From the IMG/VR virus record IMGVR_UViG_3300025325_000089, positions 1 to 36,061 of that record: a stretch of DNA of 36,061 bases. One strand, 5' to 3'. Shown in pieces: positions 118 to 36,061 of the stretch (positions are counted from its first letter, which is position 1; every line of letters begins with the position of its first letter). The translations under genes and the position numbers were made by a program. Origin of the DNA: a virus. The notes beneath the pieces were generated by a model. It worked only from the letters and a program-made list of their open reading frames with translations. It ran no database searches and was not told the DNA's origin.

Positions 118-2175
118 TTACTCCACCACCGGTATTACCGTACAGGTACAATTCGGGTGTAACGGTGGGCCTTCCACGCTATCGTAATCTATATTATAAG
201 TTCCGCCTTCTGTACCGCTTATAGACTGCCCTGGCTCTAAATAGGTAGTCTCTAGACCTAAGACCGTTCCGTGTATAGCTTGGCAGAATTGACAAGCCCC
301 TGGATTAGCAAACCACTCTTTTTTAACTACGAAGCCGGTTTGCCGGTAGGCTTCTAAAGTAGCTTCGGTACTTGCGTCTAAAGTCTCGGTTCGCGCTATT
401 CTTTCGGCTCTAAACTTTTCGCTACTACTATAAAAACTTTCTATCTTTTTAGTAGTATCTCTTAGAGTAGCGTTATTTAGAGTTGCGTCGGTTAGTATCT
501 TTTCTAGTTCTTGCCTAGTTTCTCGATTGAAATTCAAACCGGCTCTGGCTAATCTATCCTTTAGATTATCCGTTATTCGTTGCGTTATCTCAAACTTTAG
601 CTTTTCTTCGCCGGCTAACTGTAAAGCGATTGGGCCTTGGTCTTTAGCCAATTCTACCAAAATCGGATAGACTTCTTCTATTAGTCTTTTAGTTTCTTCG
701 TCTAAATCAAATAAAATATCGTTATACGCTTTCGACCTAACGAACTGCGGAGTTAGTCTATCTATAACTACCTTCTCTTGTTTTTTTAAGAATTTAACTA
801 CTTGCTTTTTCGTAACCTTAGCGTACTTCTCTTGCATCTTAATAAGCGAAATTCTAAAGTTCTCCTTAGTTTCGGGACTAATAATTAGCGCTTTAATCTT
901 CGGTCTTTTATGGTGGATTATTTTAATAGTCGCCTTGCCATTTTCCTTTTTAACGTCAGTTAGAATTTTCGCTGCTATTGGCGAGCCGGCCGGAGATAGA
1001 TTAAACGGCAGGTAAAACTGGTTTCCGCCTTCTGTTTCTCCTAAACCTTTTTCGGCTCTAATCTCGTCTCTGGTTTTCCACATATTGATAGCGGCAGTAT
1101 CTTCGGAAAGTTGGGAGGTTCTATCTTCTGGGACGGGCGACTCGTATCTAACGGTAATCGAAGGGTCGCCGTAGGTCTTATCGATATAAGTTTCTAAAGT
1201 ATCGGCTATTCGATACATCTTCGGGTCGATAACTCTCTTAGCGAAAATATACTCGCTACTTTCGGCGTTTGCTCTATTTACGTCCTCGGTAATACCTAGA
1301 ATTGGTTTAGGAACTCGAAACATCGCCATAATATCATCTCGGCTCATATGCTTAGCGGTCTCTAAAGCTATCCCTTCTAAACCTGTTCCTAGTTGTGTAA
1401 AAGTAACTTCGGAGTTTCTAACGATTGCTACCTTACCGGCGTTATCAACGCTTCCATACTCGCTTCTCCAGCGTTCCTTAAGCTGCTTAAAATCGTCCTC
1501 GTTCATTTGCGGTACAGATAAAATACCGCTAGGACGAGCGTTATTAAATAAGAAGTTTCTAGTAAATCTAGAAGCGTATTCTTCTGTTTGTATATAAAGC
1601 TGTCCGGCCGCGACTACTCCGTAACCTCTAGATGGGTCTTCAGGATTAGGTAGCTTAAAATGCATTACTTCGTCTAATTCTAGGGGTACTTGCTCTCCGC
1701 TCGGTAGGTTATAAACGTAGCCCGTTATATATCCGTTCTTAGCCATTATTACTTGGACTAAATCTGGTCTTAATAAATAAATCTCTTTAGGCTTTCTCGA
1801 AACCTCACCAACCCTAAAATACCAAAAAGCCTCTCCGGTTAATTCTATAAAGGCTTGGGTCAATTCAAATAAAACAAACTGCGAAATAAAAGGATTAGGT
1901 TTTCTTAGCAGGGTAATAAAAGGGTGGTTATCGATTTCTACTTCATCGCCTCTAGAATTATCTTTAACTATTTTGAATTGTATTTTTCCTACTTCTCCAG
2001 CTATCGCCCCTACGCAAGTCCAGACGTAGCCGACGTTACTTTTTAATTGGGTTCTTTTAGTAATAGCGTTGGGATTAGACCAATCCAGCATAAAAGTATT
2101 CTGCGAAGGTGTATTATCACCAAATCCGGCGAATAGTTTTCCGACTATTGGTATTCGGACAAGCGGGTTAGCCAT
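118..2175 (-). CDS. HK97-type portal protein fused to a MuF-like head morphogenesis domain
   Basis: The first ~400 residues are a phage portal: an N-terminal 'GYVWTCVGAIAGEVG' helix, 'PFISQFVLFEL', a clip/stem segment with 'GYVYNLPSGE' and 'EVMHFKLPNP', and 'RDDIMAMFRVPKPILG', typical of HK97 portals. The portal forms the dodecameric DNA channel and packaging vertex. From about residue 440 a helical segment leads to a MuF/SPP1 gp7-like domain: 'RIARTETLDASTEATLEAYRQ', then 'ACQFCQAIHG' and the final 'HPNCTC', the metal-ligand pattern of the Mu F family (minor head protein). At 685 aa it is longer than a stand-alone portal (about 400-450), consistent with a true fusion. It lies 27 nt after TerL. 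No Shine-Dalgarno is visible before the ATG; the leader is very AT-rich. Confidence 0.9.
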   Translation of the reverse strand: MANPLVRIPIVGKLFAGFGDNTPSQNTFMLDWSNPNAITKRTQLKSNVGYVWTCVGAIAGEVGKIQFKIVKDNSRGDEVEIDNHPFITLLRKPNPFISQFVLFELTQAFIELTGEAFWYFRVGEVSRKPKEIYLLRPDLVQVIMAKNGYITGYVYNLPSGEQVPLELDEVMHFKLPNPEDPSRGYGVVAAGQLYIQTEEYASRFTRNFLFNNARPSGILSVPQMNEDDFKQLKERWRSEYGSVDNAGKVAIVRNSEVTFTQLGTGLEGIALETAKHMSRDDIMAMFRVPKPILGITEDVNRANAESSEYIFAKRVIDPKMYRIADTLETYIDKTYGDPSITVRYESPVPEDRTSQLSEDTAAINMWKTRDEIRAEKGLGETEGGNQFYLPFNLSPAGSPIAAKILTDVKKENGKATIKIIHHKRPKIKALIISPETKENFRISLIKMQEKYAKVTKKQVVKFLKKQEKVVIDRLTPQFVRSKAYNDILFDLDEETKRLIEEVYPILVELAKDQGPIALQLAGEEKLKFEITQRITDNLKDRLARAGLNFNRETRQELEKILTDATLNNATLRDTTKKIESFYSSSEKFRAERIARTETLDASTEATLEAYRQTGFVVKKEWFANPGACQFCQAIHGTVLGLETTYLEPGQSISGTEGGTYNIDYDSVEGPPLHPNCTCTVIPVVE

Positions 2176-3784: not shown

Positions 3785-3895
3785 ATCCCTGTAATTTCCC
3801 TGTTCTTATTATATCAAATTGGAGCGTCAGGGTCGGTATCGCACCGCCTTCTCTAGCTTGGAAAGCCAGCGTCTTACTTTTAGACGACTGACGCT
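3785..3895 (-). promoter_or_regulatory. Intergenic hairpin and weak promoter upstream of terminase genes
   Basis: This 109-nt gap between the Mom-like gene and TerS holds a minus-strand TATAAT at 3808-3813 without a clear -35 box. Near the Mom stop there are alternative stems: CGTCT (3870-3874) with AGACG (3882-3886), or the wider AGCGTC (3868-3873) with GACGCT (3890-3895). No U-run follows on the minus strand, so a plain terminator is not supported. It may be a promoter plus attenuator separating modification genes from packaging genes. Confidence 0.3.
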
Positions 3896-10031: not shown

Positions 10032-10764
10032 AGAATAGGTGTACCTCGTGCTGGTAATCTAACAAGGTTTCTTTATACCCAAACGCTTTAATCCAGTTCC
10101 TTAAATCAGTTAGGTATTCTTTATATTGGTGAAACATAAATTCGGGGTGGCCGCTTAACCATATTTTTGGTCTATGCTTTTTTATAGTATCACCTGCCCC
10201 TTCCAAAACTCGCCACTCGCTACCCTCAACGTCCAGTATTATTGCTGTAGGATAAGGTATAGTTTCCGCTATCTTATCTATCTTAAACTGCGGCAATCCG
10301 TCAGCTTCTTGATATAACTCACTAAACCCGTGGGCTTTCTCAATCTTTCCTCTAGCATAAATAGGCCACCCGTCTTTATCAGTTACCCAACCCAAACCCT
10401 TAAATATATTTTTATCTGGTTTCTTTGGCATTGGCCTATGTAGATTGCTAGCGAAACCAGCAAAACAACCTAAAGGTTTCTTTAATTTATTAGCTTCCCA
10501 AACCGCTTTAATAACCGGCCAAGCCTTGTAGTTTGGTTCGAATAAAACCACGTGCGCCCCCCACATTTGGCACAACGCCGGCATTTCGCCTAGCTCCGCA
10601 CCGACATAATAAACTATATCTAGCTTACCGATATTCTCGTGCATAGACTCAAGGCGTTTCTTTTCCCAACCCTGCTTGGTGTACCATTCCGGTCTTGCCG
10701 CCCTATGTTCGGGAAGTTTTATCTTAAACTTACCGTTTATTAACGTGTCAACCATTTTTACCAT
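10018..10764 (-). CDS. FkbM-like methyltransferase, second copy in the cassette
   Basis: The segment 'IVYYVGAELGEMPALCQMWG' with 'HVVLFEPNYKAWPVI' fits SAM motif I and its acidic partner, and 'AIILDVEGSEWRVLEGA' is the FkbM family motif. It is only distantly similar to the FkbM gene at 8711-9376, so it is not a recent duplicate. 248 aa. The start has two possible Met codons (1 and 4); AAAGGTG lies upstream, favouring the first. Confidence 0.75.
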   Translation of the reverse strand: MVKMVDTLINGKFKIKLPEHRAARPEWYTKQGWEKKRLESMHENIGKLDIVYYVGAELGEMPALCQMWGAHVVLFEPNYKAWPVIKAVWEANKLKKPLGCFAGFASNLHRPMPKKPDKNIFKGLGWVTDKDGWPIYARGKIEKAHGFSELYQEADGLPQFKIDKIAETIPYPTAIILDVEGSEWRVLEGAGDTIKKHRPKIWLSGHPEFMFHQYKEYLTDLRNWIKAFGYKETLLDYQHEVHLFYEKS

Positions 10765-10767
10765 ATT

Positions 10768-10944
10768 CTACTTTTCACCTTTAGGTATCATAAATCTTTC
10801 TATAAAGTCAGAGGACATCCCTATGTGATAACTATTGGCTACAACTTGAGTAACTATATTAAATACCAGTTGACGAGTAATTAAACCTTTTTCGTAAAGT
10901 AATAAAAGACCTTTAACTAAATCCTCAAACCCTAATTCTTTCAT
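10768..10944 (-). CDS. Small helical protein of unknown function
   Basis: This 58-aa frame begins MKELGFEDLVKGLLLLYEKG and ends ...FIERFMIPKGEK with TAG at 10770-10768. Its start overlaps the stop of the upstream glycosyltransferase gene (ATGA), and its stop is 3 nt before the methyltransferase start, so it fills an otherwise empty gap in the operon. It is predicted mostly helical; I recognise no family. Confidence 0.6.
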   Translation of the reverse strand: MKELGFEDLVKGLLLLYEKGLITRQLVFNIVTQVVANSYHIGMSSDFIERFMIPKGEK

Positions 10945-11870
10945 TTATTTATAACCTCCAATATTTTAGCCCACCTTTGTAAATAAGTGTGGTCTCTTTT
11001 AGTGCGCTCGTGGCCGGCTATTCTTATTCTTTCGCGCTCCTCGTCGTGGGTTAGAAAATAATCTATAGACTGCTTTAAGTCATCGAAGTTACCGAAAGTA
11101 TAAGTAATTAGTTCTTTTTCTAAATCGAAGTAGTCCTCGATACCTTTTATATAAGGAAAGATAATAAATCCGCCCCTGCCGGTCGTCTCGAATAGTCTAT
11201 CGGAGAAGTAATAAGGATAATTAAAATTAGGTGAAAGAGTATCGCCGATAACTATTTTCGTAGAGGCGTAAAGAATGTTCAACTCCCTGCCACGAATAAC
11301 ACCCTTACCATCCCCGCCCCAATGCTCGAACTTATCTTTATAAGTTTCTTTTAGCCAGTCTATCAGTTTTGGCCGCCAAGCCCACTCCTCGTGATAACCC
11401 CGACTACCTACAAATACAACATCTTTAATAGGGCTAAAGCCTTCGTATATATAACACTCTTTATCGTAAACTCCGGCCGGCATAAAATATCCTTTTACTT
11501 TGGTGTTTTTATTTAGCCAGTCTGCCATTTGAGGGTCGACCGTAAAGAAATAGTCCAAATCAAAAAGCTCGCTATCTTTGTATTCGTCCCACCTTTTAAT
11601 ACCCATATATAGGTCTAAGTGGTAAGTCAGAGTAGGTATTTTTCGCCTCTTTAGTTCCCTGATAGCTTCTCTAAGCATATCCGTATGCCACCCGTGGGTA
11701 TGTACCCAAATAAAAAGGTCGGAACGCTTAGCGCTATCAACTACCTGCTCCGCACTAGCGCGCTGTTCCGGTAATTTAATTACTTCGTGTCCTAGAGACT
11801 CTAAAGATAAAGCGTGGTGGTTCTCGCTACTAAAAGGCACATCAAAGTTTCCTAAGAAAGTAATTTTCAT
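10941..11870 (-). CDS. GT-B glycosyltransferase (CgeB/Glyco_trans_1_2-like)
   Basis: The start 'MKITFLGNFDVPFSSENHHA' followed by 'LGHEVIKLPE' is a GT-B N-domain. 'DLFIWVHTHGWHTDMLRE', 'DYFFTVDPQMADWLNK' and 'VVFVGSRGYHEEWAWRPKLI' lead to a C-domain with 'RLFETTGRGGFIIFPYIKGI' and 'LITYTFGNFDDLKQSIDYFL', the pattern of CgeB-like family 1 transferases. 309 aa. It heads the sugar cassette and overlaps small genes on both sides by 4 nt. Confidence 0.8.
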   Translation of the reverse strand: MKITFLGNFDVPFSSENHHALSLESLGHEVIKLPEQRASAEQVVDSAKRSDLFIWVHTHGWHTDMLREAIRELKRRKIPTLTYHLDLYMGIKRWDEYKDSELFDLDYFFTVDPQMADWLNKNTKVKGYFMPAGVYDKECYIYEGFSPIKDVVFVGSRGYHEEWAWRPKLIDWLKETYKDKFEHWGGDGKGVIRGRELNILYASTKIVIGDTLSPNFNYPYYFSDRLFETTGRGGFIIFPYIKGIEDYFDLEKELITYTFGNFDDLKQSIDYFLTHDEERERIRIAGHERTKRDHTYLQRWAKILEVINK

Positions 11871-19773: not shown

Positions 19774-20682
19774 TCAGATAAGCTCCACTATTATAATTGC
19801 CGGAAAAGTAGTATCGGCTTCCATCGATAAAGTACCAGTTCCAGTTGCCCTTAAAGCGGTTAGGTTATAAGTATGTGAACCGCTAGACGGGCTTTCTACT
19901 GTAAAACCGTCCATTTCAAAGTTTGTATTTGCATTAGGTAATGGTGTTCTTATTGCTTGTAAAGTAACCCCACCTTCCTCTATATTTAATCCGGCTCTAT
20001 CTGCGGCAACGCTAGATTGTATTAAACAAATCCCGCTTATTTTTATTTTTCTACCTGCCGGTATAAGAACCGTAACCGATAATCCGGTTAAATCAACCTC
20101 GCTGGTAATAGAACCTTGGTCGTTTAGTTGTTGTCTATAGCCAATAACTCCAGGGGTCGGGGTGCGGTTATAAATTAAGTTACCGATTGTATCTACTACT
20201 GATAAAATCGTGCTAGATACCGTTGGGCCGGCGGGGTCAACTTGTCCTTGATTGATATTATTCTGGGCGGCTATAGTAGTTGCACCGGTAGTAACAATCG
20301 CTAATCTTATATGGTTAGTAGCTAGGGAAGGCGAGGCCGCGTTATTAGCTACTTCGTTATAATCAATTACTCCGTCGTCTCCTAAGTCAACGTAAGTATC
20401 CTTACTAGCGGTAAAATCTCTTGCGGCTACTGCGCTTGCGGTTATTCGTTTTCCGCCAATATAGGTAACTACGCTAGTCATCGAGGCGGTGCGGTCAACT
20501 GCCGGATTATCGGCCGTCCAAACTCCGCCGCTCGCTACGAAATTATAAAAAGACTCGCTCCTAAAGGTTTCTAATTTATTATTGGCAGTAGCTAAAGAAC
20601 CGTCCGCCAAACCCTCGTGGGTGTCGTGGTGTTCGGTGGGGTCTATTGTTTCGCCTGTAGGATAGGTAGGTGTTTGAGGCAT
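19774..20682 (-). CDS. Tail-tip/appendage protein, paralogue B
   Basis: The first ~150 residues align with the neighbour at 20684-21607: 'IDPTEHHDTHEGLADGS', 'NNKLETFRSES', 'FVASGGVW', 'GKRITASAV', 'DLGDDGVIDYNE', 'LATNHIRLA'. The C-terminal halves differ; here a beta-rich sandwich ends 'FPAIIIVELI'. This common base plus variable end fits receptor-binding or appendage proteins on the tail. 302 aa; AGGA lies before the ATG. Confidence 0.65.
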   Translation of the reverse strand: MPQTPTYPTGETIDPTEHHDTHEGLADGSLATANNKLETFRSESFYNFVASGGVWTADNPAVDRTASMTSVVTYIGGKRITASAVAARDFTASKDTYVDLGDDGVIDYNEVANNAASPSLATNHIRLAIVTTGATTIAAQNNINQGQVDPAGPTVSSTILSVVDTIGNLIYNRTPTPGVIGYRQQLNDQGSITSEVDLTGLSVTVLIPAGRKIKISGICLIQSSVAADRAGLNIEEGGVTLQAIRTPLPNANTNFEMDGFTVESPSSGSHTYNLTALRATGTGTLSMEADTTFPAIIIVELI

Positions 20683-20683
20683 T

Positions 20684-21607
20684 TTAGTTGTGTCCTATTA
20701 TTATCATCTTAGAACCAGCCGTTAGAGTTGCTCCGCCTCCTGTATTTACAATATGAACTGCGGTAATAAGCGTACTGGCTCCCGAAACCCACTTACCGGC
20801 TACGTCGTCTTTACCAGGAGCGTTGGCAGCACCGCCAGAACCTGAGTGTACGACCGTTCCAGTAACTACTTTTTCGTCACTATCAATTAAATTCTGAACT
20901 AAGTAGTTTAGTATTTCTCTAGTTCCGCTCGTAGACTCCGCCGGTATACCGGTAGTGCTACCAAGTGTAGTATCGGCCGCTCCGTTAACCGACTTTCTCC
21001 AAGAGTAATTAGCTCCACTATCGTTGTTAAATCTTAGAGTTAGTATCTTGGTAGCCGACTCGTTATCTAAGAATATAACTTGTAAAACTTTTCTACTTGG
21101 GTAACTTTCAATCGAGATATTAGACGGTGTACCTTCTTTTAATTCACACATAGCTAAAGTCCAGGGGCTTAGATTTCTTCTATCATAGACAACTGTAATT
21201 CCAGTACCATCGGTTGTTATATAGGCAATTCTAATATGGTTAGTTGCTAAAGCCGGTACGTTAGAAAAAGCAGTACCCTCGTTATAATCTATGGTTCCGT
21301 CAGTCCCTAAATCGACAGCCGTAAATTTAGAAGCGGTAAAGGCGTGGGCTGAAACGGCGGAAGCAGTTATCCTCTTACCGCTTATATAAGCAACGATACT
21401 CGTCATAGAGCCGTTTAGACTGGCTCCTAAACTATCGGCAGACCAGACGCCACCGGAAGCTACAAAATCGTTAAGCGTCTCGCTTCTAAAAAGCTCTAGT
21501 TTATTATTATTTACATCCTCCGAACCGTCGGACAAGCCGTCGTGAGTCGCCTTGTGTTCGGTCGGGTCTATTATTTGGTCTATCGAGTAAGTTGGGCCTC
21601 CACTCAT
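20684..21607 (-). CDS. Tail-tip/appendage protein, paralogue A
   Basis: It shares the N-terminal module of the 302-aa neighbour ('IDPTEHKATHDGLSDGS', 'NNKLELFRSET', 'FVASGGVW', 'GKRITASAV') but has another beta-rich C-terminal half ('SGTREILNYLVQNLIDSDE', 'GTVVHSGSGGAANAPG'). 307 aa. TTAGGAGTTATT precedes ATG 21607. Tandem duplication followed by C-terminal divergence is seen directly; the receptor-binding role is inferred. Confidence 0.65.
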   Translation of the reverse strand: MSGGPTYSIDQIIDPTEHKATHDGLSDGSEDVNNNKLELFRSETLNDFVASGGVWSADSLGASLNGSMTSIVAYISGKRITASAVSAHAFTASKFTAVDLGTDGTIDYNEGTAFSNVPALATNHIRIAYITTDGTGITVVYDRRNLSPWTLAMCELKEGTPSNISIESYPSRKVLQVIFLDNESATKILTLRFNNDSGANYSWRKSVNGAADTTLGSTTGIPAESTSGTREILNYLVQNLIDSDEKVVTGTVVHSGSGGAANAPGKDDVAGKWVSGASTLITAVHIVNTGGGATLTAGSKMIIIGHN

Positions 21608-21615
21608 AATAACTC

Positions 21616-23307
21616 CTAACTAGGCGAGTCTGGATTGTTAATAGTTTCCAGCTTGCCTACAGACTCATCTTGGCTTGCTAACTGCTTATAAAAATTGACC
21701 GGTAGTTCTTTCGCCTCTATTACCAGTTTAGCAGGTTCGTAATTTATTCGTCCAATCTGTAAGATTATCGTTCCGAAATCCCTAAAAGACATACCCCATC
21801 TATCTACATCCCAACGAGCTTTACCCCAACGGCTAGAGCCGTTCTGCCCGATATTGGCTAAAGATATAACCTCGCCGACGTGTAAGTTTTCTATATCGAT
21901 ACCGGCCGGATTATCGCTTATATTGCTATCGATTAACTCTATGTTAGACCGCATTCTCGGAGAGTTGTTTTCAGTTAAGACTTTAGAAACTATTTTATCG
22001 GCGGTATCTTCGATAGTTACGCGGTTATCAGTTATAGCTACCGACTTAACCCCGAACCTATCTATTAAATCCTCGTCCTCATATTTCTTATAAAAGTTGA
22101 CTCCGGCCGCTATTTCGCCGCCGGTAAAGTAAACGGTATTAACTATATTTTGGCTAATAGCGGTAAGGTTATTTATTGCGACGTTTTTTCCGTAAACTAA
22201 GCGATGCTCGTAATCTTCGCTAACCTCCCTTAAATAAATAATGTTATTAGCTTGGTCTATATAAAAGTAAAAGTTAGGCGGGCAAAGCTCAACTATCTTA
22301 TTTATACACTCTAGAATAGTCATTACTTTGAAAGTGTAACTAGCAGAAGTTAGAGTTGGTTCTAAGGAAGCTCCGCCGTAAGATATTTTCCCGCCTCTTT
22401 CTATATATAAATCTAGTATATCCCGTAGCATCTCCGAAGGGTCAATATCACTATAACTTATAGTGGTAGTAAGGTTGGCAGGTTCTATTTTGTAATGTAA
22501 ATCACCAGCTTGGGGGTAGTATCCTATACCGTTATCATTCCAAAGCCAAGAGACCTCGTCGCTAATCCCTGCTAAATCGTAGTAAAGATTAGGAGTACCG
22601 GCGCTACCAGGGGATATAACAAAATGGTAATAGTTACCTTGTATTAGTTTTACCCCGAACGGAAATTGAAAAGTTGCCTCCCAAGTATCAGGAGCGATAT
22701 CAATTAAGTCCGACCCGAAAGTAATAACTCCGCCGGTAGGTATTACACTATTCGAAGAAGGTAGCCCGCCGTCGTCCTCAACTAAGTCAAAATTTTCCAT
22801 TGCCTGATAAGCGTCTAAATAAAGATGGAATTTTTTAATAGAGTCAAAGTTAGCCCGAAACCTAAAAGAAATGTAATCTTGTCCTGCGTTTATAGCGAAA
22901 GAGTCGGGCGACCCACCAGAAGACTCGTCTATTATATCGGCAGTAGCAGTTTCGTAGACCTCTGCCAGATAATCGTTTAAGTCTGCCCCGAAACCTAATA
23001 AAGTAACTTCTGTATATTTTTCCTTTTCTGAAAAGTAAGGATGATACTCGCTAATAAAACCCTGAAATAAGTTTTGCCCTTCCGGAGTTTCTTTATCCTG
23101 AACTGTAATTATTACTTTATTATTAAATTCTATATCGGTTCCTAAAGTATCGGGGTCTCTAGCTAGCAATAACTTAATTTCACTACCAGCCGAATTTAAC
23201 TCTTGTGTAAAGGAAGGTTCGCTAGCAACGTCGTCCCAAGTAGTTAGGAAATTATCAGCGTTATCGTAAACTTTATAACTGTAAGTTTTTTGGTCTGGGC
23301 TACTCAT
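21616..23307 (-). CDS. Tail hub/baseplate protein (Tal-like, gp27-type)
   Basis: The N-terminal part 'YSYKVYDNADNFLTTWDD' and 'KVIITVQDKETPEGQNLFQG' with 'YTEVTLLGFGADLNDYLAEV' and the middle 'MTILECINKIVELCPPNFYF' with 'IIYLREV' match the hub proteins that close the tail tube. A beta-sandwich seems inserted at ~130-260. The C-terminus has 'IENLHVGEVISLANIGQNGS'. It follows Dit and the beta-sandwich gene. 563 aa; GGAGATTATCT precedes ATG 23307. Confidence 0.72.
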   Translation of the reverse strand: MSSPDQKTYSYKVYDNADNFLTTWDDVASEPSFTQELNSAGSEIKLLLARDPDTLGTDIEFNNKVIITVQDKETPEGQNLFQGFISEYHPYFSEKEKYTEVTLLGFGADLNDYLAEVYETATADIIDESSGGSPDSFAINAGQDYISFRFRANFDSIKKFHLYLDAYQAMENFDLVEDDGGLPSSNSVIPTGGVITFGSDLIDIAPDTWEATFQFPFGVKLIQGNYYHFVISPGSAGTPNLYYDLAGISDEVSWLWNDNGIGYYPQAGDLHYKIEPANLTTTISYSDIDPSEMLRDILDLYIERGGKISYGGASLEPTLTSASYTFKVMTILECINKIVELCPPNFYFYIDQANNIIYLREVSEDYEHRLVYGKNVAINNLTAISQNIVNTVYFTGGEIAAGVNFYKKYEDEDLIDRFGVKSVAITDNRVTIEDTADKIVSKVLTENNSPRMRSNIELIDSNISDNPAGIDIENLHVGEVISLANIGQNGSSRWGKARWDVDRWGMSFRDFGTIILQIGRINYEPAKLVIEAKELPVNFYKQLASQDESVGKLETINNPDSPS

Positions 23308-23989
23308 AGATAATCTCCAAGGTTATATCTGCTGGGTCAAACTGGTAACTTTTCGACTCCTCTTGTGCCGGAGTAATAACCGATAAACCTTTTCTTTCTC
23401 TAATATAAAAATCAGGCTGGTTATTATAAAGAGTATCAGCTGAGACTAACCAAAATCTTGCGGGATTTCCATTATCAAATTGCGTTTGTATATACTCAAT
23501 CATCGCTTTATTAGCTAAGAAACTCTGATCTCTAGCCGGCGGAAAGAATATAAACTGCGAGTTTCTAGACCCTAGTATCGGGTAAGTTACAGGGTCGTTT
23601 AGAGTATCTAGGTCTATAAAATCGCCAACAGCCAATGTACCAGAACCCCAATCGTACTGGACGAGTAGTATATCGGTATAGCTAGTAGTTCCGGAATTAA
23701 AGGCAGTATTTATACTTAACTTAACGTCTTTTATAACTGCTCCAGCAGGTATAGAAGCTAGGCTAAAGGAAAGTCCGGTAACGTCTACGTAGTAATCAAA
23801 ACTAGGGTCTGCGACAATTTGGTGACCTACGTTATAAAGACCGTTTGCGTAAGGGTCAAGTTCTATAGTTGCTATAGCTGTCCCTTTTCTAGCTTCGTCT
23901 AACCCATTAGGTACTCCGATAACCGAAGAACGAACGTAACCAGAGTTAGACTGGTCAACCGCTATTGTTACGCTTTTTCTGTAAGCCAT
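23300..23989 (-). CDS. Beta-sandwich tail protein of unknown role
   Basis: ATG 23989 (MAYRKSVTIAVDQSNSG) is chosen: an in-frame ATG at 24055 would overlap the Dit gene by 65 nt and give a false signal-like N-terminus. AGAGG lies 10 nt before the chosen start. The 229-aa product is beta-rich ('IKDVKLSINTAFNSGTTSYT', 'ILLVQYDWGSG'), like the DNRLRE-type carbohydrate-binding sandwiches in structural proteins. It sits between Dit and the hub and so is likely a virion part. Confidence 0.6.
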   Translation of the reverse strand: MAYRKSVTIAVDQSNSGYVRSSVIGVPNGLDEARKGTAIATIELDPYANGLYNVGHQIVADPSFDYYVDVTGLSFSLASIPAGAVIKDVKLSINTAFNSGTTSYTDILLVQYDWGSGTLAVGDFIDLDTLNDPVTYPILGSRNSQFIFFPPARDQSFLANKAMIEYIQTQFDNGNPARFWLVSADTLYNNQPDFYIRERKGLSVITPAQEESKSYQFDPADITLEIIYE

Positions 23990-23990
23990 A

Positions 23991-24776
23991 TTAGATATAC
24001 CTCTTAGTATAAGAAAAGCCGAAAGTAACGCTACGGCCAGTAAAATTATCTTCATAGACTAGCTTTCTGGAAGTCCCTGGCTCGAAACTTAAAAACTTGC
24101 CGGTATAATCTACTTCAGTTCCGTTTACTGTTAAGGTCTTAGTAAAGCAATTAACTACTAGAACGTCGGTATTAACCCAATCTCTAGTGATACTTATTTC
24201 TTCGCCGGTATCGGGATTAGTCAAAGTAACTATCTTACCAGTCGCCCCACTTAGCGAAGCAAAGGTGAGAGTGATAGTAGGCAAGGCTTTATAGTTACCT
24301 AAAATGTTAAAGGTCTTTTCGCCGTAGAAGGCAGTTATAGCCGCACCCATCGCTATAGCGGTCGATTGCTCTCTATAACCGAACGGGTCGGAACAGATAA
24401 AATTGATAGAAAATGGTATAAAGCCACCTTGAGCCTCACTAAAGGTGATATTTTGCATTGTAGCGGTATAGACCCTCTCAAAGCCCCCTTGGTCTATTTT
24501 CAGAGGCTTTTCTTTAGGAGTAAGGTATTGCATTAGATTGTCTCTTGCTAACTCGGCTGCGGGGCGATTAGGAGCGATTATGGTTCCATCGATGATAATT
24601 TCACGCTGATTAAAGTCCGCCGAGACCATTTTACCGCCGTCGTCGTTAGCCAAGCTCTTAGAATTGACCGCTCTAGTTGGGATAGAGTGGGATAATCTTT
24701 TAGTGAACTGAACGTACTCGACGTTGTCGAGGCGAACATAATTAAAATAGACTGGAAACAAATTATTATTTGCCAT
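23991..24776 (-). CDS. Distal tail protein (Dit-like, siphovirus tail family)
   Basis: The N-terminal half has the siphovirus Dit pattern: 'YVQFTKRLSHSIPTRAV', 'REIIIDGTIIAPNRPAAELA', 'NLMQYLTPKEKPLKI', 'YTATMQNITFSEAQGG' and 'FSINFICSDPFGYRE'. The C-terminal half is the galectin-like beta domain. 261 aa is standard. It starts inside the end of the tape measure gene (11-nt overlap). It forms the hexameric ring joining tube and hub. Confidence 0.82.
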   Translation of the reverse strand: MANNNLFPVYFNYVRLDNVEYVQFTKRLSHSIPTRAVNSKSLANDDGGKMVSADFNQREIIIDGTIIAPNRPAAELARDNLMQYLTPKEKPLKIDQGGFERVYTATMQNITFSEAQGGFIPFSINFICSDPFGYREQSTAIAMGAAITAFYGEKTFNILGNYKALPTITLTFASLSGATGKIVTLTNPDTGEEISITRDWVNTDVLVVNCFTKTLTVNGTEVDYTGKFLSFEPGTSRKLVYEDNFTGRSVTFGFSYTKRYI

Positions 24777-28877: not shown

Positions 28878-29435
28878 TTATAGCAGGACTTTTTGATAAC
28901 CTTCCAGTAGACCTTTATTTACGTCGTCTATTAGCTTCCCGTATTCTTCCGCGTAGCCTTCGATAGACCGTTTAGTAAAGTTCTGGGGGTTCTGTAATAT
29001 CCTCGAAACTAGAACGGTAGCAACTATAGAAATGGGATTTGGTATAGCGGCCTGTCCTAAATCGCCAACTATTTTTATATTCTTACTACCAATAGTCCAT
29101 CGCCCACCTCTAAGTAAAACGCTATTTTTATAAGCAGTATTAAGGGGATAAAGAACGTAATCTTCGCCTTCAACTAATAATAAAGTTACGTCTAAGTCGT
29201 CGTCTACATAGGAAATAGAGTCTATAGTCGCCCAATCTTCTATAAATAACTCTCTTTTACCGGTGCCGTCGTAGTATCTAGTAACATCGGTATCTGCGTT
29301 AAAAGTCCTGCCCGTATAAGTATCAATAAAAGTCATCACCGCGCTAATAGCGGTTTCTAGAGTAGTTACCTCGTAATCTGAAAGAGGCCGCTTAAGATAA
29401 GCCTCGATTTTAGCTTGGTCGGTATAGTCTGCCAT
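28878..29435 (-). CDS. Head-tail adaptor (gp6/gp15-like connector)
   Basis: 185 aa: 'EAYLKRPLSDYEVTTLETAI', 'VMTFIDTYTGRTFNADTDVT', 'RYYDGTGKRELFIEDW' and the C-terminal helices 'ATVLVSRILQNPQNF' are characteristic of HK97 gp6-type adaptors ('I..yTgr.f......ryydG.g...l.l'). It follows the capsid genes, as usual. Confidence 0.8.
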   Translation of the reverse strand: MADYTDQAKIEAYLKRPLSDYEVTTLETAISAVMTFIDTYTGRTFNADTDVTRYYDGTGKRELFIEDWATIDSISYVDDDLDVTLLLVEGEDYVLYPLNTAYKNSVLLRGGRWTIGSKNIKIVGDLGQAAIPNPISIVATVLVSRILQNPQNFTKRSIEGYAEEYGKLIDDVNKGLLEGYQKVLL

Positions 29436-29670: not shown

Positions 29671-30972
29671 TTAGGATACTGTACCTGTTCCGATTAGCAC
29701 GAAAGCCTCTGGGAATTGAACCAAGTTGTTAGCTCGGAACTCCGCCCTAAGAGCTTTAGCGTTCTGCTCGGCTAGGTTGACAGCATTAGCACCAGAGTCG
29801 TGAACTGTCGCCTCGGTAAGAGTGGTGAGGTTAAGTCCGGCTTTCCTAATAAGGGTGCTAAACTTCAAGTTCCCAAAGACAATGAAGGGTTCGTTTTCGT
29901 CACCCACTACATTGATATCGGGTAGAACTTCGACTAACTCATAAGGATAGCCCCAGATAGTACCGGTGACTCCACCGTTTACCCCAGGTTGCCAAATGTA
30001 GTTATCGTTTTGGTCTTTAATTCTTTGAACTAAACCAAGCAAGGTTCGGTGAAGGTAGAATTTAGCACCTACTAAAGCTCCTCCGTGAACCGTATAAATT
30101 GCTCTGTTTATATCATCGAAGTCAAGGTCGGCAAGAGCCGCACCTATAGTGACCGCGCCAGTACCGGCGGTACGTAGAATACCGCTAGTTGCGTCGGTAA
30201 AGACAAGAGTATCAATCAATCGGGCGCTTTCGAGGGCGAAGTCTTGGGTCAATTCGCTAAAGATATTGACTGCCGCATCTTCGTTTAGCTCGTCAGTTAC
30301 GATTGCGATACCTGCAAACTTTCTCAAGTTTACGGTGTCTTGACCGAACGTCATCTTAGTTCCGGTCTTGGCAACGAGTTCGCCGGTTTCGTACATAGTT
30401 ACTCCGCCAACTTTCTTGTTAAGAACAAGCGAGTTGGAACTAATAGTAACCGTTCTAGCGTCCCGCGCGGCTACTCCGTACACATCTTCAAGACGTGCAA
30501 CTTCTGCGACGAAGTCTCGGTCAACTAGGAAACCACCATCGGCGTTAGTAGTTTCGTTCTGATAGCCAGCTTTCTCTATTGCGTACTCGTTAAATCGCTT
30601 TAGAGTCGGTTGGTCATCTCGCATAAGAGCCTGAAGTCCTTTGAAGAACCTCACCTCTTTCGACATCTGTTCGATATCGGTTTTAACTTCTACAGTTGGA
30701 GTGTTAGCACCAATGTTTTTACTAACCACTGGCTCTATCTTCTCAACTGCTTTAGTTACGGCCTCGTCGACCTTTTTGGTAAGAACACCGGCAACTGAAT
30801 TAGTAATCTTTTCCAAGGCATCCTCGGAAAGAATTACCTCGTCGACAGTATCACCATCTTGGTCGTCTTTGGCTTTGGCCTCGGCTTCTAACGTTTCGAG
30901 TTCTTTTGCTTCCTCGTCGGTTAGAGTTTCGCCTTTAGCCTTTTTTTCTTGTAACTCTTTTAGTCTTTCCAT
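29671..30972 (-). CDS. Major capsid protein, HK97 fold with delta domain
   Basis: ATG 30972 is used, since GGAGGTAATA lies directly before it; the upstream in-frame ATG at 30984 is itself part of that site. The first ~100 residues are a charged coiled coil ('RLKELQEKKAKGETLTDEEA'), the scaffold-like delta domain that the protease removes. Then 'NETTNADGGFLVDRDFVAEV', 'TKMTFGQDTVNLRKFAGIAI', 'LTQDFALESARLIDTLVFTD' and 'GYPYELVEVLPDI' are HK97 capsid signatures. 433 aa. Confidence 0.92.
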   Translation of the reverse strand: MERLKELQEKKAKGETLTDEEAKELETLEAEAKAKDDQDGDTVDEVILSEDALEKITNSVAGVLTKKVDEAVTKAVEKIEPVVSKNIGANTPTVEVKTDIEQMSKEVRFFKGLQALMRDDQPTLKRFNEYAIEKAGYQNETTNADGGFLVDRDFVAEVARLEDVYGVAARDARTVTISSNSLVLNKKVGGVTMYETGELVAKTGTKMTFGQDTVNLRKFAGIAIVTDELNEDAAVNIFSELTQDFALESARLIDTLVFTDATSGILRTAGTGAVTIGAALADLDFDDINRAIYTVHGGALVGAKFYLHRTLLGLVQRIKDQNDNYIWQPGVNGGVTGTIWGYPYELVEVLPDINVVGDENEPFIVFGNLKFSTLIRKAGLNLTTLTEATVHDSGANAVNLAEQNAKALRAEFRANNLVQFPEAFVLIGTGTVS

Positions 30973-30984
30973 TATTACCTCCAT

Positions 30985-32085
30985 CTAGTTATCAGTACCA
31001 GATAGAATTTTGTTCACGCCGACTATAATAAGTTCGACTTGCTTATCGATAATCTGCGCGTGCTTCTTGGTCGTGACTAAAACCAACTTACGCTTACCCT
31101 TATTCTCACGCTTGTCGGTGACAAAGGCGGTTTTAATAGTATCCGCCATAGCCGACATCTGGGTTTGTAGCCCAGAAATTTGAGATGATAGGGTTTCAAT
31201 ACTTTTATCTTCGTCGATTTCTTCTATAGACTTAAATTCTGGTGCTTCTTCATCAAAATCTCCGTAATGACTCTTTAGGTGGTTATAAATTCCTTTTCTG
31301 TCTCCGCTAGGTACGTCTACTCCGCCTCTTGCTCCTAGTAAAGCTCCCATAGCGGCTTTAACTCCGTTCCAAACTACGGAGTGAGAACCGGCCGCTAAGT
31401 GGTGGGGAAGTTTATAACTAGATTTAACGTCAGGATTTTCGCTATCGAACCAAGTAGAGATTGCCTTTAGTTTCGTCATATCGTCGCCGCATTCTCTAAT
31501 CTGCATTGGCCCATTCCAAGCCATATCTTTATCGGCGAGTGGGGTTTTCTTATAGCCGATAACGCTCTTATCGGATATACTCTTATCTTCGCTGTCAGTA
31601 ACTTCGCTAAATTCTTCAATCTCGTTAGTTTCTAGACCTTTACTTTTAGCGGTTACCATAGCTTCGCTATTAGCTGGCACCGGAACGACGCTAAATTCTA
31701 GCATCTCGCTTGCCGTCCAAGTATTATTTTCTTCGTCAAACTCTTTACCTATAAAACCAACCGAAAGACCGGTTAGATAACCACCGAGAATTAAGTTATA
31801 TACCTGATTGGCAAGCATTGAGATTTCGGTAGCGAGCTTAAAACGGGCGATAAGCTGTCCGGCAGATTTGCGTAAAGATTGGGTTCTACCTATTGGTAGG
31901 CTTTGATAATCGTGGCCGTATAGGACTGGGCCTCCGGCGGCCATAAACTTTTTAACGTTTAGACCTTTTATATCTATCTTCTCGCCTTGTCTATCTATAT
32001 CCTCGGTTGCGACTATACCCTCGACTTCGCCTTCGGCAAGTTTCTGGGCTTTAATAAGTTTAACTAATAATTGCTTTTTTAACAT
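30985..32085 (-). CDS. HK97-family prohead protease with C-terminal extra domain
   Basis: ATG 32085 follows TTAGGAGTAAG, a better start than an in-frame TTG at 32109. Catalytic-type residues: His58 in 'GPVLYGHDYQSLPIGRT' and Ser108 in 'GGYLTGLSVGFIGKEF', with 'EFSVVPVPANSEAM' completing the fold. After ~170, a second domain 'SYKLPHHLAAGSHSVVWNGV' is found, the 'YKLPHH' extension seen in some phage proteases, then a coiled coil (~305-330). 366 aa. It would cut the capsid delta domain. Confidence 0.88.
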   Translation of the reverse strand: MLKKQLLVKLIKAQKLAEGEVEGIVATEDIDRQGEKIDIKGLNVKKFMAAGGPVLYGHDYQSLPIGRTQSLRKSAGQLIARFKLATEISMLANQVYNLILGGYLTGLSVGFIGKEFDEENNTWTASEMLEFSVVPVPANSEAMVTAKSKGLETNEIEEFSEVTDSEDKSISDKSVIGYKKTPLADKDMAWNGPMQIRECGDDMTKLKAISTWFDSENPDVKSSYKLPHHLAAGSHSVVWNGVKAAMGALLGARGGVDVPSGDRKGIYNHLKSHYGDFDEEAPEFKSIEEIDEDKSIETLSSQISGLQTQMSAMADTIKTAFVTDKRENKGKRKLVLVTTKKHAQIIDKQVELIIVGVNKILSGTDN

Positions 32086-32097
32086 CTTACTCCTAAC

Positions 32098-32152
32098 AAA
32101 AATCCGCAAATAAATATACGCTTGTATTGACTCAAGGTCATTTATTTACGGA
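32098..32152 (-). terminator. Terminator/attenuator before the protease gene
   Basis: On the minus strand TCCGTAAATAAAT pairs with ATTTATTTGCGGA (13 bp with one U-G), followed by five T (32102-32098). The protease ribosome site begins only a few bases later. It would limit read-through from the repeat-protein genes into the head genes. Confidence 0.6.
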
Positions 32153-32166
32153 CTACTATGGTCTCT

Positions 32167-32364
32167 TTATTTAGTTTTCAGTACGATTTTATTATATTGA
32201 CTTCTAGGCTTACTGTCAATAGCGAACGAGTCGCGCTGGCTAACTATATATAATCGATTGACTGCCTTACAACGGTGGCACTTAATCGAACCGACTGCGG
32301 TTGAGAATAATCCTAGCATACCGGCGCAGTTAAAACAGCGAACGTCTGGGATATTTCTACTCAT
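32167..32364 (-). CDS. Com-like zinc-finger protein
   Basis: 'VRCFNCAGMLGLFS' and 'IKCHRCKAVNRLYI' give four Cys (10, 13, 29, 32) in the arrangement of phage Mu Com ('RC.nC..LL.....iEIKCpRCk..n'), the RNA-binding protein that opens the mom ribosome site for translation. 65 aa matches Com (~62). A Mom-like enzyme is encoded far away at 3894-4535. AAAGG lies before ATG 32364. Com-like proteins also occur near head genes of phages without Mom, so regulation of Mom is inferred only. Confidence 0.7.
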   Translation of the reverse strand: MSRNIPDVRCFNCAGMLGLFSTAVGSIKCHRCKAVNRLYIVSQRDSFAIDSKPRSQYNKIVLKTK

Positions 32365-34021
32365 ATTGTACCTTTCCGCTTATAGAGTAAGGTTCGATAG
32401 TTATTATTCTATCAGAACCTAATTTACCTTGTATATAACTTACTTTAATTTCGGCCTCTATACCGCTTGCCTTAATCGCCAAATTGTAATTCTTTTCTAG
32501 GACAAACTTAGGATACCTAATCTTCTCGGATAGTAAGAAATACCTTAACGACTTAGTAATTTTAACTTCCCTAAATATCGAGTATTTAAGGGACTTAGTT
32601 ATGGCGTTTTCTTTGAAGATATAATAGGTTAGCGATTTAGTTATCGCTTGGTCGGTTAAGACTTCGTAAGTAAGACCTTTGGTTATAGATACCGTTCTAA
32701 AGATAACGTACCGAAGCGATTTGGTTATAGCGTTTTCTAAAGCGATGCTATAAGTAAGACTCTTGGTTATCGCTACACCCTCTATAAATATCCGGTAGGT
32801 TAGGGATTTAGTAATTGGGTTTTCGGTAATAACTGTATATTTAAGGTCTTTAGTTACAGATAGACCTTGGCCTTCAATAACGTAAGTTAAGTTTTTAGTA
32901 ATCGTAACTTCGGCTAGAACTTTATAAACTAGCGTTTTGGTAATAGCTGTCTCTATAGATATATAGTAGGTTAGGCTCTTAGTAACTGCCGCCGGAGTAG
33001 TTATAATCGTGTATTTAAGACTCTTAGTAACCGACTGCTCAGATAGAACTACGTATTTAAGAGACTTCGTTATAGAGGTGGGAACGACTACTATATATTC
33101 TAGGGATTTAGTTATCGCCGTATCGGTAATAATTCTGTAAGTTAGCGACTTAGTAAGGGTAGTATCGGTAAGAACCGTGTATTTTAGGCTCTTGGTTATT
33201 GCTTGCTCGCTAGTAACTATATAGGTAAGCGATTTCGTAACTGCAGTATCGGTAACTACCCGATAAGTTAAACTTTTAGTAACGGCATTATCTGTAATAA
33301 CTTCGTAGGTAAGACTCTTAGTTATAGAGGTATCGGTAAGAACCGTATACTTTAGGGATTTTGTAATCGCGGTAGTAGTTACCTGCTCGAAACCGAAGTT
33401 AATCTGGTCGGTCTTTAGTTGGAACGGGGCTAAGACCGCGTAGGTTAAAGACTTAGTAATTGCGTTTTCTTTTAGAACCTCGTAATTTAAGGATTTAGTA
33501 ACCGATATTTCTTTAATTACTTTATAGGTAAGAGATTTCTGAACAATTAAAAGGTAATAAACCTTAACTTGTATATGGTCAATGTTTAAGCGGTTAGTAT
33601 CTCCTGTACCTAACTGAAGTCCTCTAAGTCTAAAGTTAGCATCGCTAAACTCGTCTCTTGTCCAGCTTCTACCCCAAGTATCTGCACTCCCACCATAGGT
33701 CTTATTATCATCCGGAGTAGCGCTAAAAGCGGTAGAGTCTTTAGCGGTAGAATATGTAGAGCCACCATCCCAAGAAAGAGCTAATCTTAATCTCCTATCA
33801 TTGCCAGCCCCGTTTTGGGCGTGTCCCTCAACCGTAGCTTCAATACCTACGATTATCGCATTTGCAGGTAAAGCGCTGATAATATCAAAGGTAGAGTAAA
33901 TTTCAAAAGCACCGTTACTAATAGTATCCGCATAAGCATCATCAGTAGCGTGGGCATTATCCGGAAGTGTCCAATGAGCCGCCGCATTCGCTGTAGGTGA
34001 CTTAAATCCTGTATCAGCCAT
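32357..34021 (-). CDS. Repeat fibre-like structural protein 2 (23 KSL-Y repeats)
   Basis: The N-terminal ~155 residues form a beta-sandwich ('GFKSPTANAAAHWTLPDNAH', 'DRRLRLALSWDGGSTYS', 'NIDHIQVKVYYLLI'). Then 23 copies of a ~14-residue unit (consensus TKSLTYxVLTDxAI) run to about residue 495, broken once by 'FQLKTDQINFGFEQVTT'. The end ('IEAEIKVSYIQGKLG') is beta-rich. Every unit alternates hydrophobic and polar residues, as in beta-solenoids. It overlaps the preceding repeat gene by 1 nt (TAATG). Virion fibre or adhesin is inferred from location near head genes and beta-repeat form. Confidence 0.6.
   Translation of the reverse strand: MADTGFKSPTANAAAHWTLPDNAHATDDAYADTISNGAFEIYSTFDIISALPANAIIVGIEATVEGHAQNGAGNDRRLRLALSWDGGSTYSTAKDSTAFSATPDDNKTYGGSADTWGRSWTRDEFSDANFRLRGLQLGTGDTNRLNIDHIQVKVYYLLIVQKSLTYKVIKEISVTKSLNYEVLKENAITKSLTYAVLAPFQLKTDQINFGFEQVTTTAITKSLKYTVLTDTSITKSLTYEVITDNAVTKSLTYRVVTDTAVTKSLTYIVTSEQAITKSLKYTVLTDTTLTKSLTYRIITDTAITKSLEYIVVVPTSITKSLKYVVLSEQSVTKSLKYTIITTPAAVTKSLTYYISIETAITKTLVYKVLAEVTITKNLTYVIEGQGLSVTKDLKYTVITENPITKSLTYRIFIEGVAITKSLTYSIALENAITKSLRYVIFRTVSITKGLTYEVLTDQAITKSLTYYIFKENAITKSLKYSIFREVKITKSLRYFLLSEKIRYPKFVLEKNYNLAIKASGIEAEIKVSYIQGKLGSDRIITIEPYSISGKVQYE
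32535..33550 (-). repeat. Tandem ~42-nt coding repeats (protein-level)
   Basis: Twenty-three units of 14 (sometimes 15-16) codons. Protein units are highly alike (T-K-S-L-x-Y) but codons for K, S, L and T vary freely from unit to unit, so DNA identity is low. Confidence 0.75.
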
Positions 34022-36061
34022 TATGCGCCCTCCTGATAAACTCTAATCGTAACGTGATTATTAGCATCGTAGTAATCTCCAACGCCAACGGTTATAGAGC
34101 CGTCTAAATCGAAGTCGGTATCTGCTCCGGTAGTATTATCGCTATCTAAGTTTTCCCAACTCGCTAAGGTATAGTTATAAATCTGTAAGTAAACTGTCGA
34201 AGTAGTAGGGGCAAGTTCGGTCTGCCCGTTCCAATGTATATTTATATCGTCGGTGTCGTTATCGTGCCTATATCTATAATGGTGTATTGCAAATTCTACC
34301 CCTTCACCTTCTATAGCCACTCTTACCGCGTCATCGGTCGCAACGTCTAGATAGTCTTGCGAAGAATACTGCGTTGCTAGAGGAGTTTCGTTGGCCGGTA
34401 GGCTCGCTTTGGCTTCCCTTGTATAAAAGGTTCTAGCTATAGCGTAAGTTAAACTCTTAGTAATAGCGGTATCGGTTATAACCTCGTAAGTTAGGTTTTT
34501 AGTAACCGCTACTTCTTTCAATACCCGATAAGTCAGGCTCTTAGTTATCGCAGTCTCTACCACAACGTGATAAGTTAAAGATTTAGTTAAACTATCGGTG
34601 GTTAAGACCCTATATTCTAGGGACTTAGTTACTGCCGACGGGGTAGTAAAGACCGTATATTTTAAGCTCTTAGTTACTGCCTGTTCCGAAACTACTATAT
34701 AGGTAAGACTTTTGGTTACTGCCGTATCAGTTACGACTCGATAAGTCAACGATTTAGTAATCGAGGTAGAAGTTAAGACCTCGTAATTAAGAGATTTAGT
34801 TATTACTATATCCGTTAGGATTTCGTAGGTAAGAGCTTTGGTTATAGCCGAGTCGGTAATAACTGTATATTTAAGAGATTTAGTAAGCGCTTCTGCTTGC
34901 TTAACCGTATACTTTAGGGATTTTGTAATCGCCTGTTCGCTGGTTACTATATAAGTAAGAGACTTCGTAATCGAACTATCTGTTAAGACGGTATATTTTA
35001 AGGACTTCTGTATTAGAACCGGCGCGGCGGCCTCAACCTCGTAGGTAAGAGACTTGGTAATAGAACTATCGGTTAGTACGCAATACTTTAGAGATTTAGT
35101 TATCGGCTGTTCTATAAAAACCCGATATTCTAGAGATTTAGTTACAGAGTCGGAAGTTAATACTGTGTATTTAAGAGATTTAGTAACTGCCGTATCCGTT
35201 AGAACCGTATATTTCAAAGACTTAGTAACAGACTGCTCGGAGGTAACTATATAAGTTAGGCTCTTTGTAACTGCTGTATCGGTTAGAACCCGATAGGTAA
35301 GAGATTTCGTAACCGCAGAAGGGGTTGTGATAATTGTATATTTAAGAGATTTCGTAATCGCAGCGACTTCGGTAGTAACTGTATATTTAAGACTCTTTGT
35401 TACGGCGTTTTCTTTTAATACTCTGTAGGTGAGGGACTTCTGCACTGCGGTATCTGTTAAGACGGTATATTTTAGGCTTTTGGTAACCGCAATTTCTTTT
35501 AGAACGGTATATTTTAGTGATTTTTGGATTGTTTCTGTAGAAACCGCCGAACCTAAATTGTAAACTGTGAAGTTATCGGTGTCGTTGTCTGCATCCATAT
35601 CATCGCCGGAATTTACCAATACCGTACCACCACCCCAAGCTAATCCTGCTTTGCCTGCGGCGGTTATATCGGTGTCTGTGGCAGAAGCTACTTCTACGCC
35701 ATCTATATAGAATTTGAGAGCCGAGCCGATTATTTCTAATTTACAAATCGCACCGTTATAAGGTGGGGAAAAAGCAGAACCTAAAGTAGCCCAACCACCT
35801 GCCGTAGTTCTTTTATAAAGCTGGCAAGTATTAGTTCCGCCTTGGTCGTTTATGCGAACTGCGTACATATTATCTGCGTCCTGAACCCTTACCAAAGCGT
35901 ATTGAGGAGAAGAAGTACCAGCATCCAAAATGCACATTTCAAACTCAACTGCGTAATCAGCCGAGGGGTAGGTTGCGTCTGCGGTATAGATAACCCCATC
36001 ATTCAAATCTCCTGCGGGACTGGCTCTATCTGTAGCCGCCATAGCGGAAGCCCCTGTACCT
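34021..36061 (-). CDS. Repeat fibre-like structural protein 1 (26 KSL-Y repeats), N-terminus cut by right edge
   Basis: The frame is open to the right edge (codons for GTGAS lie before the first Met at 36042), and the visible N-terminus begins within a LamG/concanavalin-like domain ('YAVEFEMCILDAG', 'GAICKLEIIGSALKFYIDGV', 'GKAGLAWGGG'), so the true start is probably outside the window. Next are 26 copies of the ~14-residue KSL-Y unit (~174-532), then a C-terminal beta domain ('EGVEFAIHHYRYRHDNDTDD', 'NHVTIRVYQEGA'). It shares the repeat type but not the end domains with its neighbour. LamG-like domains bind sugars, so host-surface binding is plausible. Confidence 0.6.
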   Translation of the reverse strand, partial: GTGASAMAATDRASPAGDLNDGVIYTADATYPSADYAVEFEMCILDAGTSSPQYALVRVQDADNMYAVRINDQGGTNTCQLYKRTTAGGWATLGSAFSPPYNGAICKLEIIGSALKFYIDGVEVASATDTDITAAGKAGLAWGGGTVLVNSGDDMDADNDTDNFTVYNLGSAVSTETIQKSLKYTVLKEIAVTKSLKYTVLTDTAVQKSLTYRVLKENAVTKSLKYTVTTEVAAITKSLKYTIITTPSAVTKSLTYRVLTDTAVTKSLTYIVTSEQSVTKSLKYTVLTDTAVTKSLKYTVLTSDSVTKSLEYRVFIEQPITKSLKYCVLTDSSITKSLTYEVEAAAPVLIQKSLKYTVLTDSSITKSLTYIVTSEQAITKSLKYTVKQAEALTKSLKYTVITDSAITKALTYEILTDIVITKSLNYEVLTSTSITKSLTYRVVTDTAVTKSLTYIVVSEQAVTKSLKYTVFTTPSAVTKSLEYRVLTTDSLTKSLTYHVVVETAITKSLTYRVLKEVAVTKNLTYEVITDTAITKSLTYAIARTFYTREAKASLPANETPLATQYSSQDYLDVATDDAVRVAIEGEGVEFAIHHYRYRHDNDTDDINIHWNGQTELAPTTSTVYLQIYNYTLASWENLDSDNTTGADTDFDLDGSITVGVGDYYDANNHVTIRVYQEGA
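34435..35535 (-). repeat. Tandem ~42-nt coding repeats (protein-level), first array
   Basis: Twenty-six units with consensus TKSLKYTVLTDTAV; three have QKSL instead of TKSL, and single units read KAL, KNL or SLN/SLE. Unit length is nearly fixed at 14, with +1 or +2 residue insertions at the turn (for example TTPSAV, AAAPVLI). Confidence 0.75.

Follow-up and report, generated by a model that had tools for sequence, protein, structure and literature searches.

Two neighbouring viral proteins with arrays of a 14-residue KSL-Y unit as putative C-terminally anchored adhesion fibres of uncultured tailed phages

IMG/VR virus record IMGVR_UViG_3300025325_000089, a stretch of 36,061 bp analysed over its whole length (the window), carries two adjacent genes on the minus strand, A and B, whose products are built around arrays of a 14-residue unit (KSLxY) and are proposed here to be adhesion fibres. 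Gene A (34021..36060) is open at the contig end and encodes 673 amino acids (aa) when read from the first in-window ATG (34021-36042), and the full-length product of 1082 aa, with ~409 extra N-terminal residues, is encoded by contig L007 (99-100% identical). It includes a LamG/ConA-like lectin domain (residues 15-162, 35557..36000, Pfam Laminin_G_3), an array of 26 units (34417..35526) and a C-terminal beta domain (34021..34416) that is shared, at 46.5% identity over 129 aa, with protein A of contig L012, which likewise has an A/B pair. Gene B (32357..34021, 554 aa), of which L007 holds a 99% identical copy, encodes an N-terminal beta-sandwich domain (33542..34021), an array of 23 units with a single 31-residue interruption (32513..33541), and a C-terminal tail (32357..32512) without the PY motif that is present in relatives sited before a head-tail adaptor gene.

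An earlier, sequence-only reading of the window had described 49 copies of the unit (26 and 23), with Lys and Tyr nearly invariant and the unit length nearly fixed, and the recount agrees, as do the coordinates of the arrays. The consensus is T-K-S-L-(K/T)-Y-x-V-x-x-(D/E)-x-(A/S)-(I/V); in array B, 22 units were counted by the strict motif and one is a K-D-L unit. K2, L4 and Y6 are present in 49/49 units, which is partly imposed by the search motif [TQ]K.L.Y.[VIL], and V/I8, T1 and S3 are found in 48/49, 45/49 and 43/49, respectively. Unit spacing is 14 residues, with a few at 15-16. A DNA pattern back-translated from two units gave 27 matches in the window versus 0 in 100 dinucleotide-preserving shuffles.

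Two features had not been noted before, namely the truncation of gene A at the contig end and the absence of tandem repetition from the arrays at the DNA level, where Tandem Repeats Finder gave no hit across the array region. Mean identity between units is 51% for protein and 54% for DNA, and codons at identical residues agree between units in 39.9% of cases (0.399) versus 38.0% (0.380) expected from codon usage. Synonymous sites are thus saturated, yet the residues K, L, Y and V/I are retained, which points to old units under strong selection at the protein level. An origin of the window arrays by recent slippage was rejected on account of this chance-level codon match. Multi-unit duplications do occur in some relatives (L055).

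A scan of sequence collections with the DNA pattern identified 47 viral contigs with about 1,190 units in ~50 proteins. Among all loci compared here, several closely duplicate one another or are truncated at a contig end. In prokaryote genomes totalling 257 Gb, the pattern matched three stretches, a clear array (L057), a look-alike (L058) and a chance match (L056), and an origin as a cellular gene was rejected on the strength of this comparison. The look-alike, an open reading frame (ORF) of a Bacteroidetes metagenome-assembled genome (2377-2760), contains near-perfect VTKWLTYSVTFPAY repeats (14 aa) that are KSLxY-like but almost identical to one another. Across the family, neighbouring units are spaced at 14 residues in 712 cases, 15 in 375 and 16 in 29. 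Conservation is ~100% for Y, 95% for K, and 92% for L and for V/I, figures somewhat inflated by the use of a K-L-Y motif in the first pass. The number of units per protein ranges from a few, in cut fragments, up to 73.

The arrays had been described as lying between beta domains, and these now include a LamG/lectin-type domain. The Laminin_G_3 match of gene A scores 26.1 bits (1.1e-5) for the window part, below the 27.6 cut-off, and 30.1 bits, above it, for the whole L007 protein; the relatives L055 and L033 score 74 and 148 bits. For the whole-protein model of B, the top Foldseek matches were short beta-sandwiches of carbohydrate-binding module types (CBM35/CBM22), none under E 0.001, and they may weakly reflect its N-terminal domain. 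A homologue of this domain in MW202473 precedes repeats of ~28 aa and, fused behind them, a tail/adaptor protein of T7-gp11 type, as judged by the record annotation and phrog_394.

Heads are shared across unrelated repeats. One ~385-aa head is common to KSLxY stalks (L011, L045), a stalk of SERD repeats (L102) and one of DSG repeats (L081), the head of L011 being 46.5% identical to that of L102 over 387 aa (E 1e-110) and 38% identical to that of L081. A second head occurs on KSLxY (L012, L017, L049), on a 24-residue repeat (L113) and on the repeat of gp13 of the cultured Streptomyces phage Hiyaa, with 35% identity between the heads of L012 and gp13. Repeat proteins without a large head (L009, L013, L018, L021, L034, L043, L047, L054) carry a short N-terminal motif, LL(Q/L)E(N/T)GDK(L/I)LLE.GD.I..DG, which reappears between arrays or C-terminally in L021/L026/L047.

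Comparison of close relatives revealed exchange at the N-terminal side. In L024 and L035, the flanks are 96-97% identical, whereas the heads (~310-345 aa) share 32% identity and the arrays comprise 28 versus 32 units; one breakpoint coincides with the start codon and the other lies within the array, the first units differing too. In the pairs L043/L013 and L037/L018, the C-terminal units are kept, while the N-terminal units and the unit number (17/10 and 22/17) differ. Copy number in related contigs therefore differs despite similar flanks. Furthermore, L025/L022, L107/L116 and L023/L051 have adaptors that are 73-90% identical and heads that are unrelated or absent. Exchange of the head or N-terminal part between near-identical phages is what is usually seen in receptor-binding parts, and it shows that the end preserved here is the C-terminus.

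The gene order in relatives is portal, protease, major capsid protein (MCP), two small conserved genes, fibre/lectin-type genes, the repeat gene and a gp6-like adaptor, and in more than 20 loci the repeat gene lies 13-130 bp before the adaptor. The window encodes on its minus strand a portal with a Mu-F domain (118..2175), the gp6-like head-tail adaptor (28878..29435; phrog_442, 1.2e-14), an HK97-type MCP (29671..30984) and an S78 prohead protease (30985..32109). A profile built from 16 adaptors (A2) was used for a census outward from the adaptor, which gave 70 viral loci, of which 65 were examined. The gene directly before the adaptor carries a KSLxY array in 29 loci and is not KSLxY in 32, the other 4 being contig ends, and the 29:32 split is not a frequency, as the census was seeded from KSLxY loci. 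Many of the 32 encode another tandem repeat, such as SERDxEIxGxxxxx with an exact period of 14 (L079, L100, L102, L104, L106-110, L115, L116, L121), DSGxGSEAVxILxxI with a period of 18 (L081, L082, L087, L090, L094), or a repeat of ~24 residues (L113/L114). Likewise, Hiyaa gp13, annotated as a 'minor tail protein', is encoded directly before the annotated head-to-tail adaptor.

The proteins with different repeats have the same kind of C-terminal tail (PYxxKxSPY), for example RIYPYKRKPLNPYRPIGKVL for KSLxY, NPYCPKENPYNKKISPYTR for SERD and TYTRKTSPYSKKTSPYTRKTSPYKK for DSG. By class, PY..PY is present within the last 60 aa of 12/13, 8/8, 4/5 and 1/1 proteins, as compared with 2/818 other ORFs of the same loci. 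Given that unrelated repeats occupy the same slot, the array appears to serve as a stalk, with binding left to the head. For the same reason, the idea that a row of Lys and Tyr on one side of the array serves as the binding face appears unlikely.

We propose, with a probability of roughly 0.6, that A and B are virion adhesion fibres, anchored C-terminally and probably at the neck, with a lectin-like head and an exchangeable stalk. The N-terminal head, resembling lectins or carbohydrate-binding modules, would face outward and bind the host surface, where a glycan is the most likely receptor. The array of KSLxY units would form a rigid or semi-flexible beta-repeat stalk with a reach that scales with the number of units, and the C-terminus would hold the fibre to the virion, most probably at the neck (the head-tail adaptor or the adjoining capsid). 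Anchor and position would be kept in evolution, while the head and even the stalk-repeat family would be exchanged by recombination. A host-surface adhesin, as put forward from the sequence alone, is hence the best reading, and the head swaps strengthen it.

In addition to the seeding of the census, several findings weigh against this proposal. The cassette in the window is placed before the protease and not before the adaptor, its upstream genes being visible in L007, and neither A nor B has the PY tail. The neck anchoring is therefore borrowed from the relatives, and the anchor of A and B may differ from theirs. In about ten loci, the repeat gene is followed by a gene for a ~460-aa unknown protein instead of the adaptor. 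Moreover, a relative of the L102 head adjoins lysis genes in MW202647, which is a tail-fibre position, and DSG-like repeats are present in mycobacteriophage 'minor tail proteins'. Such modules are thus common to tail fibres, and attachment to the neck is the least certain step.

The alternative with the best, if modest, prospects is a head fibre, in which the C-terminus would be anchored on the capsid shell, as in the RcGTA head fibres or the phiCbK filament, with the same adhesive role. The location of the cassette between the MCP and the adaptor, or beside the protease and MCP in the window, would suit it, as would phiCbK gp76, a candidate head filament of 2,799 aa that is encoded near the head genes and contains tandem duplications and a ConA-like lectin domain (PMC3556154). 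However, in most relatives the repeat gene touches the adaptor and not the MCP, and the cousin architecture in MW202473 is fused to a tail/adaptor protein. Somewhat less probable again is a conventional tail or side fibre that acts at the tail tip and whose gene lies in an unusual place. This reading is consistent with the other tail-fibre-type proteins in the cassette, with the related head beside lysis genes and with the annotation of Hiyaa gp13, whereas a set of tail-tip genes is already present in the window (about 19774-24776), and the conserved position is before the adaptor, not after tail-tip genes.

The structure of the array bears on a further alternative. Given only B, AlphaFold2 predicted one seven-residue strand and one bridge per unit (pLDDT 60-80), and with an in-register alignment of 78 sequences it produced a parallel coil, for which the best model had a pLDDT of 75 and a pTM of 0.68 and the other four had a pLDDT of 54-43. 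Comparison of the array model by VIA retrieved MpAFP (3p4g; Z 9.3, root-mean-square deviation 1.9 over 93 residues) and CsgA, and the Foldseek match of this model to the PDB was poor. Matches by Foldseek or VIA to CsgA, CAP and LpxD were regarded as generic solenoids and not taken as homology. The beta-solenoid suggested in the sequence-only reading is thus weakly supported: the strand and bridge per unit in the parallel coil speak for it, but one model of the five is fair and the Foldseek match is poor. As AlphaFold2 over-predicts solenoids for repeat sequences (PMC11795689), only a beta-rich, folded stalk is retained as likely. A triple beta-spiral of the adenovirus kind was considered as well. 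The alternation I-K-L-x-Y-x-V, a high beta propensity, and a charge/hydropathy balance that falls on the folded side (+0.22) fit such a stalk. Charge coupling between units, used as a guide to parallel or antiparallel packing, is asymmetric, with one cross-unit pair (7 to 5', z -4) and none on the diagonal, which makes a simple hairpin ladder slightly less likely. A linker that is disordered or amyloid-like, about as doubtful as the tail fibre, would account for the moderate AlphaFold2 confidence and its instability between models, given the bias mentioned, though the alternation, strong purifying selection, charge/hydropathy balance and beta propensity argue against it. An internal head, scaffolding or ejection protein is very improbable, as the location in the head module and a weak PHROG 'head scaffolding protein' match (phrog_15087, 3.5e-6) to one stretch within the array are outweighed by the swappable lectin heads, which scaffolds do not carry, and by the match spanning repeats only and not being among those listed for L012, the other KSLxY protein scanned.

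That no named family has this repeat, as had been stated, is borne out by Pfam, PHROGs, the PDB and 50,697 phage records. In the latter, tblastn with the B, L028, L012 and L023 proteins detected no KSLxY array, and a profile of 78 sequences had no PDB sequence match at E <= 1. Low-score matches of the array to Pfam, PHROGs and PDB entries (DUF4906, TIP49_C, thioredoxin, 'head scaffolding') were set aside as artefacts of the repeats, since they varied between the windows searched. The nearest look-alike is Pfam YTV (PF07639), likewise a short repeat, of the form Y-T-V, for which the window scores 13.5 bits, below the 21-bit gathering cut-off, and which matches 4/78 ten-unit KSLxY windows at E <= 0.01. 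The described YTV members are Cys-rich wall proteins of bacteria (planctomycetes) (PMC8567305), whereas KSLxY is viral and not Cys-rich, with Cys at no consensus position and at 5% in position 7 (1,193 units). The repeat protein of L012 (4218-6911) passes the YTV cut-off (28.4 bits vs 21), by chance or as a hint at the host.

A literature search on the slot before the adaptor found only analogues. As described in passages of two studies (PMC4759559, PMC10684548), the neck passage structure (NPS) of lactococcal 936/P335 phages was located between capsid and tail by immunogold and forms whiskers with terminal knots, and some NPS carry carbohydrate-binding domains and are diversified by domain exchange. 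The likeness lies in carbohydrate-binding domains, domain exchange and a neck site, which is shown by immunogold for NPS and is here a probable one, suggested by adaptor synteny. However, the NPS gene precedes the major tail protein rather than the adaptor, the example published there exchanges its C-terminal domain, the opposite of the KSLxY fibres, which swap the N-terminal head and retain the C-terminus, and those passages report no KSLxY array. The tblastn searches above gave no lactococcal match at the limits used, which leaves room for distant homology. By its description, phiCbK gp76 is similar in its great length, ConA-like lectin domain, tandem duplications and position near head genes (PMC3556154), and differs in that its duplications show at the DNA level whereas KSLxY synonymous sites are saturated. 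RcGTA head fibres are likewise flexible surface fibres and bind capsule polysaccharide, but have an N-terminal anchor in a pentameric spike base and no described repeats of the KSLxY kind (PMC7296036). Hiyaa gp13 shares a homologous N-terminal head and the slot directly before the adaptor, and differs in having another repeat and no PY tail. As no sequence relation was found and the location of the KSLxY fibres is only inferred, they were not filed under NPS, the phiCbK filament or RcGTA.

Chances are about even that these proteins represent a widespread and previously unrecognised class of neck fibres that uncultured tailed phages anchor by the C-terminus, combining several lectin-like heads, at least four unrelated stalks of 14-28-residue repeats and one PY-rich anchor. 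Work on phage host range looks mostly at the tail tip. If the proposal is true, the modular fibre encoded before the adaptor would give many uncultured phages another recognition organ, one that evolves fast, and host-range prediction would have to take it into account. The stalk offers a natural experiment: since unrelated 14-, 18-, 24- and 28-residue repeats seemingly do the same job, selection would see length and periodicity, not sequence. The PY tail and the adaptor would offer a handle for detecting fibres of this type even if neither head nor repeat has a match.

Other genes near the cassettes were recorded. The ~460-aa protein ('IKSFRGGKSDYEDRGIYGSFK..KNLNIRG') is encoded directly after the array in L013, L014, L018, L033, L037, L041, L043, L050 and L054, and the members scanned had no Pfam or PHROG match. 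Two small proteins, 'MAATVEI.E.N...NMGS' (167-238 aa) and 'W.WGV.YKDG.ELHQF..G.FHQI' (~140-170 aa), always precede the fibre cassette (L007 78-782 and 1006-1422; homologues in L011, L016, L017, L020, L025, L028, L035 and L044). Those scanned matched no Pfam or PHROG entry at E 0.01, and the two are candidates for proteins that partner the fibre or form its base. A cluster at 6025-11870 on the minus strand of the window encodes glycosyltransferases (GT1-type, exostosin GT47/RXYLT1-like, Glyco_trans_1_2) with FkbM-type and other methyltransferases, and its targets could be Thr/Ser-rich virion proteins (e.g. the repeats), DNA or the host surface. The window also encodes a Mom-family DNA modification protein (3894-4535, minus strand; PF25680, 1.1e-43), which adjoins DUF5681 (3422-3784) and the terminase.

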